A stretch of 61,233 nt of DNA from Xanthobacteraceae bacterium (GTDB lineage Bacteria > Pseudomonadota > Alphaproteobacteria > Rhizobiales > Xanthobacteraceae), in the NCBI GenBank assembly GCA_030037895.1, contig JASHPW010000005.1, positions 1 through 61,233 of the forward strand, in the 5' to 3' direction. Positions 1-3,778 of the stretch are shown piece after piece. The first letter of the stretch is position 1. Each line of letters begins with the position of its first letter. The position numbers and the translations under genes are program-made. Under the pieces are notes generated by a model that saw only the letters and a list, made by a program, of their open reading frames with translations, made no database searches and was not told the DNA's origin.

Positions 1-2183
1 TTGGCGACGAAGCCCATGGGCTTGAGCCGGGCGCGTTCGAGCCGCCGCGTCAGCAGCATGCCGAGCGTTTGATGCGCGAGCCGGCCTTCGAACGGATAGC
101 AGACCAGATAATGCTTGTTGGCGCGCGGAAACGTCTCGACCAGGAGTTCGCCGGCTCCCGGCATGAGCGAACGCCATTCCTGGATCTCGAGCCATTCGCG
201 CACCTGGGCGGGGAGATGGCGCCACTGCCGCGGATCGGCGATAAGCGAGCGCACGCGCGCGGCGAGATAGGTCGAGAGCGGGAATTTGCCGCCTTCATAG
301 GCCGGCACTTTGGGGTCTTCCGCGGTCGCGCGCGAGACATACACCTCGTCCTCGACCAAAGCCTCGTATTTGAGGATTTCTCCGGCGAACACGAAAGTAT
401 CGCCCGGCACCATGGTCTCGACGAAATATTCCTCGACCTGGCCGAGGAGCCGGCCGCCGCGCGGAATGAGCTTCGAGGCGCGCGAGCGCACCAAACGCAC
501 TTTGAGCATGTCGGCCTCGACGATGGTGCCGACATTGAGCCGATAGCGCATCGCCACATTGGGATGGGTGATGCGCCAGCGTCCGTCCTTGCCTTCGCGG
601 ACGCGGGCGAAGCGTTCATAGGCCTTGAGCGCATAGCCGCCGGTGGCGACGAAATCGACCACGGCGTCGAAATCGGCGCGAGTGAGCGCCGCGTAGGGCG
701 CGGCGATCTTCACTTCGGCATAAAGCTCCTCGCTCAGGAACGGCGCACCGCAGGCGCAGCCGAGCACGTGCTGCGCCAGAACGTCGAGCGCGCCGACGCG
801 CAAGGGCGGCGTGTCCTGCGCGTTCTCGGCGATGGCGTCGAGCGCGGCGCGGCATTCCAGCACCTCGAAACGGTTCGCCGGGATAAGCACGCCCTTCGAC
901 GGCTCGTCCATGCGGTGGTTGGCGCGGCCGATGCGCTGGAGAATGCGCGAGGCGCCCTTCGGCGCGCCGACATTGACGACGAGATCGACGTCGCCCCAGT
1001 CGATGCCGAGATCGAGCGAGGAGGTGCACACGACCGCGCGCAGGCGGCCGGCCGCCATCGCCGCCTCTACCTTGCGCCGCTGCGCCACGTCGAGCGAGCC
1101 GTGGTGGAGCGCGATGGCGAGATTATCGTCGTTGATGTGCCAGAGGTCCTGGAAAATGCCTTCCGCCTGGCTGCGCGTATTGACGAAGACGAGCGTGGTG
1201 CGGTGCGCCTTGATGAGTCGGTAGATTTCATCGAGCGCGTGGCGCGCCGAATGGCCGGCCCAGGGCAGCCGCTCGCGCGTGTCGAGCATGCTGACGTCGG
1301 GCTCGGCGCCGCCTGCGGCGATGATGAGATCGGCGCGTGCGGCGTCCGCCGCGCCGTCGCGCTGCGGCACCATGAAGCGGGCGATCTGCTCGGGCTCCGC
1401 CACGGTCGCCGAGAGGCCGATGCCGGCGAGGCCCGGGGCGAGACGAAAGAGGCGGGCGAGACCGAGCGCGAGGAGGTCGCCGCGCTTGGAGGTAACAAGC
1501 GCGTGCAGCTCATCGAGGATCACGCGCTTGAGCGAGCCGAACAGGTACGGCGCATCGGCGGACGCGAGGAGGAGCGCAAGCTGCTCCGGCGTCGTGAGCA
1601 GAATTTCCGGCGGATCGCGGCGCTGGCGCCGACGCTTGCCGGTCGGCGTGTCGCCGGTGCGCGTCTCGATGCGGATCGGCAGTCCCATCTCCGCGATCGG
1701 CGCTTCCAGGTTGCGCGCGATATCGACCGCGAGCGCCTTGAGCGGTGAAATGTAGAGCGTGTGCAGCCCGCCCTCGCGGCGGAGGTCGCGGCCGGCGGAG
1801 ACGAATCTCCTTTTATTAAGGTGTTGACTTTCCTCACCTTCTCCCTTGCGGGCGAGGTCGATTATTGCGGACTGTGTCCGCAATAATCGGGAGGGGGGTG
1901 GATTGGCGGCGGCTTCGCATCCCCCTTCCCAATCCTCCCCCGCAAGGGGGGAGGGAGCAGTTTGGGCACGCGGCGCGGCGGTTTTCACCGACAATTCCAC
2001 GAGGCTCGGCAGGAAGCCCGCGAGCGTCTTGCCGCTGCCGGTCGGCGCAATCAGCAGCACCGAGCGCCCGGCTTGCGCCTTCGCCAGGAGCTCAAGCTGG
2101 TGCGCGCGCGGAATCCAGCCGCGGCTGGCGAACCAGCGGGCGAACACCTCGGGAAGGGCCGCGGTGCGTTCGACGACGGTCAC
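1..2183 (-). CDS. Lhr-like, ligase-associated DEXH-box DNA helicase (3' end outside window)
   Basis: Superfamily 2 ATP-dependent helicase of the ligase-associated DNA damage response type. The frame is open from a GTG at 2183 to the window edge (727 codons). Seen: Walker A APTGSGKT at residues 46-53, motif Ia TLYISPLKALA (about 142-152), Walker B as DELH (224-227), a GLSAT motif III, and an Lhr-type RIGRANHRMDEPSKG motif VI. The LKPMGFVA stretch is at the window edge. The GTG overlaps the stop of the upstream methyltransferase as GTGA, so the two are probably translated in tandem. Family members are about 820-850 residues, so roughly 100 are missing on the left. Odd feature: about 55-60 residues rich in P, G, S and E (about 70-130), encoded by a nested palindromic repeat, interrupt the protein between motifs I and Ia without breaking the frame. 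Family call is firm; the in vivo role in repair is inferred from the family. Confidence 0.9.
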   Translation of the reverse strand, partial: MTVVERTAALPEVFARWFASRGWIPRAHQLELLAKAQAGRSVLLIAPTGSGKTLAGFLPSLVELSVKTAAPRAQTAPSPLAGEDWEGGCEAAANPPPSRLLRTQSAIIDLARKGEGEESQHLNKRRFVSAGRDLRREGGLHTLYISPLKALAVDIARNLEAPIAEMGLPIRIETRTGDTPTGKRRRQRRDPPEILLTTPEQLALLLASADAPYLFGSLKRVILDELHALVTSKRGDLLALGLARLFRLAPGLAGIGLSATVAEPEQIARFMVPQRDGAADAARADLIIAAGGAEPDVSMLDTRERLPWAGHSARHALDEIYRLIKAHRTTLVFVNTRSQAEGIFQDLWHINDDNLAIALHHGSLDVAQRRKVEAAMAAGRLRAVVCTSSLDLGIDWGDVDLVVNVGAPKGASRILQRIGRANHRMDEPSKGVLIPANRFEVLECRAALDAIAENAQDTPPLRVGALDVLAQHVLGCACGAPFLSEELYAEVKIAAPYAALTRADFDAVVDFVATGGYALKAYERFARVREGKDGRWRITHPNVAMRYRLNVGTIVEADMLKVRLVRSRASKLIPRGGRLLGQVEEYFVETMVPGDTFVFAGEILKYEALVEDEVYVSRATAEDPKVPAYEGGKFPLSTYLAARVRSLIADPRQWRHLPAQVREWLEIQEWRSLMPGAGELLVETFPRANKHYLVCYPFEGRLAHQTLGMLLTRRLERARLKPMGFVA
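1806..1965. repeat. Nested palindromic repeat inserted in frame in the helicase gene
   Basis: A core perfect inverted repeat lies at 1859-1889: 14-bp arms (left arm CGATTATTGCGGAC) around a 3-base loop. Outside it, CTCCCTTGCGGG near 1841 and CCCGCAAGGGGGGAG near 1940 form a second, imperfect inverted pair. The style matches rhizobial intergenic mosaic/palindromic elements, which are usually intergenic. Here the unit lies inside a coding sequence and is read through in frame. Boundaries are estimated from where helicase-like sequence stops and resumes. Confidence 0.75.
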
Positions 2184-3154: not shown

Positions 3155-3160
3155 CGATGC

Positions 3161-3200
3161 GTCATTCTGGGGCGTGCCAAGCGAAACCCGGAATCCATGA
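3161..3200. repeat. Dispersed GTCATTC...GGAATCCATGA repeat copy
   Basis: A 40-bp imperfect palindrome begins GTCATTCTGGGGC and ends CCCGGAATCCATGA, between the divergent methyltransferase and hicB-like genes. A related copy is at 26826-26869. Repeats of this style are abundant between genes in Rhizobiales chromosomes. It may act as a REP-like or transcription-terminating structure, which is unproven. Confidence 0.6.
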
Positions 3201-3332: not shown

Positions 3333-3569
3333 ATGAACAAGCCGGTGATCTTTACGATTTCCGCCGTCTGGGACACCGAGGCGTCCGTCTGGAGCGGCCA
3401 TTGCGACGATATTCCGGCCGCCGCCGATGCGCCGACGTTGGACGGGTTGCTGGCCAGCATGTCGGCCATGGCGCTCGATCTTTTACCGGATAATCATCCC
3501 GGTATTGATCCGGCGTCGCTCTTCCTTCAGATCACGGCGCTACGCGAAGTCGAGCCGGCTGCGGCCTGA
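3333..3569 (+). CDS. HicB-like antitoxin (DUF1902 type)
   Basis: Protein of 78 residues with a partial RNase H-like fold sequence (FTISAVWDTEASVWSGHCDD) typical of DUF1902/HicB antitoxin N-terminal domains. There is no obvious C-terminal helix-turn-helix or ribbon-helix-helix, so it would be a minimal antitoxin. The ATG at 3333 follows AGAGGTATCC, a reasonable ribosome site. The stop and the start of the downstream HicA-like gene share one base (TGATG). The order antitoxin then toxin is the reverse of classical hicAB. Its role would be to bind and neutralise the downstream RNA-cleaving toxin. Family call rests on pattern and partner. Confidence 0.75.
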   Translation: MNKPVIFTISAVWDTEASVWSGHCDDIPAAADAPTLDGLLASMSAMALDLLPDNHPGIDPASLFLQITALREVEPAAA

Positions 3570-3766
3570 TGGCGCCGCAGTTCGGCCGCGCCCTGCGGGA
3601 CATATTGCGCGCGGCCGGCTGTATCTTCGTGCGCCAGGGCAAGGGCAGCCACGAAATTTGGTATAGCCCGATCACGAAGAGAAATTTTCCGGTCCCCGTC
3701 GGGATCGCCAGCCGGCATACAGCCAATTCCATCCTTCGGCAGGCCGGGTTGCCGAAAGCATTTTGA
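3569..3766 (+). CDS. HicA-like mRNA interferase toxin (YcfA family)
   Basis: Protein of 65 residues with a double-stranded-RNA-binding-like fold pattern. Seen: an LRAAGC...RQGKGSHEIW segment in which His in GSH is the conserved catalytic residue of HicA toxins, followed by the usual basic/proline strand RNFPVPVG and C-terminal helix TANSILRQAG. Length is normal for HicA (55-70). It is translated from an ATG overlapping the stop of the DUF1902 gene by one base. Expected to cleave translated mRNA when unopposed. The catalytic His is intact, so the module looks functional. Confidence 0.8.
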   Translation: MAPQFGRALRDILRAAGCIFVRQGKGSHEIWYSPITKRNFPVPVGIASRHTANSILRQAGLPKAF

Positions 3767-3778
3767 GTCACGCGCTCG

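Follow-up and report, generated by a model that had tools for sequence, protein, structure and literature searches.

The window, by which we mean the whole stretch of 61,233 nt that was analysed, begins inside a gene that is read on the minus strand as a single open frame from position 2183 to position 1, where the contig end cuts it off. The incomplete product scores 907 bits against TIGR04121, the model for ligase-associated DNA-damage-response DEXH helicases (curated cut-off 850), and contains the Pfam domains DEAD, Helicase_C, WH_Lhr and DEAD_assoc. Its best fold match among solved structures is M. smegmatis Lhr (5v9x, E 1e-32). The C-terminus of the helicase carries on in contig C64 of the same genome (G000), the first 195 bp of which also encode residues 663-727. 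Further along the window, two small neighbouring frames (3333-3767) resemble, by eye only, a HicB/HicA-type toxin–antitoxin pair. The features of the helicase gene that matter here, with the basis of each assignment, are as follows.

1 to 2183, minus strand: Lhr-type ligase-associated DEXH-box helicase gene, incomplete (open frame, TIGR04121, Pfam, fold match)
1728 to 1763, minus strand: motif Ia region, HTLYISPLKALA, residues 141-152, intact (translation; conserved in 48 homologues)
1764 to 2006, minus strand: motif I–Ia linker, 81 residues (comparison with genus-mates; predicted structure)
1832 to 1961, minus strand: palindromic element of about 130 bp (limits inferred from flanks common to other copies, e.g., TCACCT and GGGAGCAG)
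1837 to 1857, no strand assigned: left outer arm, 21 nt (inverted-repeat search)
1859 to 1872, no strand assigned: left inner perfect arm, 14 nt (inverted-repeat search)
1876 to 1889, no strand assigned: right inner perfect arm, 14 nt (inverted-repeat search)
1890 to 1930, minus strand: central imperfect stem-loop of the element (predicted fold)
1934 to 1954, no strand assigned: right outer arm, 21 nt, itself the family hairpin CCTCCCCCGCAAGGGGGGAGG (inverted-repeat search and family pattern)
2025 to 2048, minus strand: motif I / Walker A, APTGSGKT, residues 46-53, intact (translation; conserved in 48 homologues)

An earlier note on this DNA had described a nested inverted repeat with perfect 14-bp arms between helicase motifs I and Ia, and such a structure is indeed present. 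The inner arms are 100% complementary across a 3-nt loop and are nested within outer arms that are 86% complementary. The inner palindrome is the sole perfect 14-bp hairpin with a loop of at most 10 nt in the 61-kb window, for which first-order shuffles lead one to expect 0.03. The whole element stretch also folds far better than its dinucleotide shuffles, both as DNA (z = -8.1) and as RNA (z = -7.5), with 0 of 200 shuffles equal to it. As the note had stated, the motifs on both sides are intact in one continuous frame, the translation giving APTGSGKT ahead of the insert and HTLYISPLKALA behind it.

The very stable RNA fold could be taken to mean that the palindrome acts at the RNA level, as an mRNA hairpin that lowers or attenuates helicase expression and of which the peptide is a by-product. 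However, about 220 nt of the frame precede the element, and an Rfam search of the element returned no family close to its threshold. Moreover, most orthologues are without the element, and relatives have different elements at the same site, all of which makes such a regulatory role very unlikely.

Comparison with close relatives, i.e., MAGs of Xanthobacteraceae and other Hyphomicrobiales taken from GTDB contigs, points to an insertion. In the nearest relative, L022 (88% identical), the linker is 30 residues long versus 81 here. The net gain is thus 51 codons, and it reaches up to 61 residues against the shortest genus-mate (20). Thus, the extra length that the note had claimed is real, whereas its figure of 55-60 residues is not the one obtained against the nearest orthologue. 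Linkers without the full element measure 18-46 residues among the helicases of related genomes (20-38 in genus-mates), whereas those in the genus with a full element measure 61-87, and no element-free orthologue with an equally long linker was found. Two other origins of the long linker were weighed against this pattern. One is that it is an inherited domain that happens to be palindromic by chance, a suggestion that draws on some length variation among the element-free orthologues. However, most Hyphomicrobiales orthologues have a linker of only 16-33 residues, the long linkers coincide with family hairpins, and their peptides come from different reading frames, so that we regard inheritance as exceedingly improbable. 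The other is an assembly error or a chimera of the metagenome bin, for which the fragmented assembly (148 contigs) and the error-prone nature of palindromes can be cited. This seems just as hard to credit, because the frame is open, both sides of the insert are 88% identical to relatives, and other elements are found in the linker in assemblies made independently, among them ones with long contigs (e.g., L055, on a 3.4-Mb contig).

The element belongs to a dispersed family. Repeat copies in the 3.27-Mb, 148-contig genome were located by BLAST and pattern searches, and the outer hairpin pattern CCTCCCCC-N5-GGGGGAGG occurs 68 times with up to 2 mismatches, against once for the reversed control pattern; the further copies that the note had proposed to look for therefore exist. 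Among 36 relatives, 25 contain copies of the hairpin (0 to 53 per genome with one mismatch), and the controls are zero in all but one genome. We extracted 49 stretches (48 usable), which are mostly 105-170 bp long and multi-hairpin, and which follow a common plan consisting of an outer hairpin, an optional variable hairpin, a central stem, a second optional variable hairpin and a final outer hairpin. The hairpin loops are of at least two types, CAAG/CTTG-like and TGAAA/TTTCA-like. No name for this family of roughly 105-170 bp repeats was found in the open-licence literature. The exact inner palindrome of the helicase copy has no second match elsewhere in the genome within 3 mismatches, showing that the inner palindrome itself is not the repeated unit. 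There is exactly one further occurrence of the 13-nt inner arm GTCCGCAATAATC, at G000:C35:403-415, beside another repeat copy. A claim that the inner slot is sequence-variable yet always palindromic was dropped, since, of 59 slots cut out automatically, only 16 did better than their shuffles at p 0.05 and many of these slots contain no hairpin; the slot test is thus only partly convincing.

Stop-free reading frames are more frequent in these elements than composition alone would give, with 166 of 294 frames open across the 49 extractions versus 122 in composition-matched shuffles (one empty extraction adds 6 to both counts), which helps the in-frame survival of copies. How the copies move is a separate matter. 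Target-site duplication is not readable at the helicase insert because the flanks have diverged from those of insert-free relatives. Y1 transposases, the only type of mobiliser sought, number two in this genome and zero in G046, which has 53 copies of the repeat; Y1/REP transposases, considered as the mobiliser, thus show no consistent association with the family.

The helicase linker has received elements in other genomes as well. Other palindromic elements lie at the same site in L019, L020, L021, L023, L028, L033, L051, L055 and L106, and a single hairpin is present in L029 and L035. These linker elements vary in both sequence and reading phase, giving rise to peptides of the PSPLAGEG-, LPRLRGRVGEG- and SPPAGRGR-type. 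On a helicase tree computed without the linker, the presence of an element switches at least 10 times, a count of presence changes in which the tree cannot separate gain from loss and some differences may be deletions. Insert-bearing and insert-free relatives are paired with high support in several places (L051 with L030, 100/99; L033 with L038, 100/99; L055 with L052 and L054, 100/97), and the window helicase groups with its nearest insert-free relatives with weak support (89/67). L021, L023 and L028 have a common frame and may include inherited copies, and the linker of L024 looks like a decayed relic. Both gains and decays thus seem to occur at this linker, and the simplest reading of the sequences, with gain and loss left unseparated in the tree count, is that the same linker independently received different elements several times.

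The protein appears to bear this burden well. In the AlphaFold model, residues 71-140 have pLDDT values below 50 and are flanked by a helix (52-69) and a strand (142-145). The insert is thus predicted to be a disordered loop, a favourable outcome for the structural check suggested in the note and consistent with tolerance. In the alignment to M. smegmatis Lhr, the linker region is only about six residues long (query 66 and 138 corresponding to chain 89 and 96). Outside the linker, dN/dS is 0.10-0.16 between the window helicase and its genus-mates and 0.11-0.15 between the insert-free L022 and the same set. Insert-bearing and insert-free helicases are under equal purifying selection, which agrees with the note's view that the protein tolerates the insert.

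Taken together, the repeat family, the open frame, the roughly 51 extra residues, the recurrence in the linker and the unchanged purifying selection lead us to conclude that the helicase insert very probably belongs to a dispersed family of non-coding, MITE/REP-like palindromic elements, one copy of which is here read within the protein frame and is survivable in a permissive linker. Under the mechanism that we propose, the element would spread by copying into many sites, and its C/T- and G/A-rich, GC-rich arms would leave few stop codons in any frame. Copies within genes would survive where they add a multiple of three nucleotides and the site is a flexible surface linker, and the encoded peptide, if translated, would stay disordered and presumably harmless. 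The motif I–Ia linker would be one such permissive site and would, for that reason, be struck repeatedly and independently.

The same family has entered other genes. Hairpins were picked by DNA pattern only, and those kept had to lie within an open frame flanked by recognised protein families. In this genome, in-frame copies besides that in lhr were found in uvrA, dnaE2 (two sites), imuB, a PHP-UvrD fusion, polA, glyS, nrdJ, hydantoinase A and a POT transporter, and copies at gene ends in pdeM, ccmA and others. In pdeM (L164, G000:C64:757-873), the next gene downstream of the helicase on the adjoining contig, the palindromic element is at the start, and the real start codon may be located further downstream. 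The relatives G018 and G021 have copies in mfd, an ATP-dependent DNA ligase, PHP-UvrD, dnaE2, uvrC, leuS, glyS, a pseudouridine synthase, nrdJ, hydantoinase A and an indolepyruvate oxidoreductase. The corresponding linkers grow as the helicase linker does: in uvrA, most outgroups have 9 residues where this group has up to 82, and in dnaE2, many outgroups have 13 against as many as 102 in the genus.

Several observations on dnaE2 may be added. At L165 (G000:C75:16700-24200), dnaE2 has two in-frame palindromic inserts, the adjacent imuB-like gene has one, and a further copy lies directly upstream, so that the whole error-prone polymerase operon is decorated. A third dnaE2 site is enlarged in an order-level relative: L196 (G038:C139) has about 230 extra residues there, built from several stacked repeat-like peptides, and the hairpin pattern occurs only twice in that genome. 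The dnaE2 linkers of L184, L179 and L204 contain peptides such as AHSRASGNP and RHSGAERSAEPGMT that resemble translated CGTC-type REPs, and two unrelated repeat families therefore seem to use the same linkers.

Genes for repair and replication make up 6 of the 10 internally hit genes in this genome (lhr, uvrA, dnaE2, imuB, PHP-UvrD and polA) and 5 of 11 in G018 and G021 (mfd, DNA ligase, PHP-UvrD, dnaE2 and uvrC), in a sample drawn without regard to function. Pooled as distinct genes, the share is 9 of 16 (binomial p ~8e-8 under a 6% background that is an assumed estimate). This raises the question of whether insertion is steered to, or selected in, such genes on account of effects of the altered proteins on repair or the mutation rate, in line with the mutator hypothesis of an earlier study, where the same gene classes were reported with unrelated repeats (PMC3733652). 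We consider the skew suggestive only, because the background is estimated and gene length is uncontrolled, the screen favouring long multi-domain proteins. Furthermore, tRNA synthetases, hydantoinase and ribonucleotide reductase are also struck, and the unchanged purifying selection on the helicase suggests that its activity is not altered. Steered or selected insertion of this kind is accordingly an improbable account of the data. A broader version, in which elements accumulate by targeting or selection in the linkers of Lhr, UvrA, UvrC, Mfd, UvrD, DnaE2, ImuB, PolA and ligase and so tune genome maintenance, with one loop reused by different elements, is speculative and, in our estimate, unlikely. 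Insertion of a dispersed element into permissive linkers is the reading that we retain.

Three known systems resemble what is seen here. The Rickettsia palindromic elements (RPE-1 to RPE-3; Ogata et al.) are 100-150 bp long and enter the reading frames of unrelated genes without breaking them (PMC3767692, PMC10969869). The element in this work is likewise a palindromic repeat of that size class, present in several copies and in frame inside protein genes, so that the likeness drawn by the earlier note holds for the way in which it works. However, it is not one of them. First, intragenic RPEs encode a conserved peptide (PMC10969869), whereas the peptide here is not conserved and varies with several reading frames; up to E 10, no NCBIfam protein model matched the linker peptide. 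Second, every Rickettsia orthologue has its RPE insert at the same locus (PMC3767692), whereas presence here is patchy and different copies occupy one site. Third, the hosts here are Xanthobacteraceae/Hyphomicrobiales, whereas those of RPEs are Rickettsiales.

In-frame GTAG/CGTC REPs were described in free-living bacteria by Di Nocera et al. in 2013 (PMC3733652), so that the note's in-frame palindrome in a free-living-type genome stands as an observation, but not as a new one. The authors listed uvrA, UvrD/Rep, dnaE2, DNA polymerase I, DNA ligase, tRNA synthetases and pseudouridine synthases among the REP-bearing genes, noted a DNA-repair gene bias of intragenic REPs, speculated on mutators, and reported a REP at about the same site in recB of two Xanthomonas (PMC3733652). 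In-frame palindromes, free-living genomes and an overlapping gene list are thus common to both studies, and the genes listed here are those of 2013 again, now with a different repeat family inside them. Those REPs are 20-40 bp long with stems of 5-13 bp, an unpaired GTAG or CGTC end and, in the CGTC type, a CCA tail (PMC3733652), whereas the element here is about 105-170 bp long and has several hairpins, with C/T-rich outer arms that can pair across the whole element. Compared by eye with the published description, it does not have the defining features of either REP type (PMC3733652). A CGTC...CCA string elsewhere in the window (3160-3200) was considered as a degenerate CGTC-type REP and rejected, as it folds no better than its shuffles.

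Bacterial MITEs (ERIC, Correia and the like) are short, non-coding elements with terminal inverted repeats, for which in-frame fusions are known (PMC10969869). The present element is also short, non-coding and multi-copy with terminal inverted repeats; the search for Y1 enzymes turned up no parent transposase for it, and no target-site duplication is readable in the diverged flanks. Since it is neither a REP (by size and plan) nor an RPE (by peptide and taxon), we count it as a variant of a known phenomenon. In-frame palindromic insertion being known already, we judge that what is new is a structurally different repeat family and its recurrent insertion at one linker.

The helicase loop may be read as a record of parasitic DNA lengthening working proteins, most often DNA-repair proteins. 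Closely related genomes provide a natural series in which one enzyme has, at a single linker, no insert, one insert or a different one, and this series makes it testable how repetitive DNA becomes protein sequence and whether the repair-gene bias is neutral or selected.
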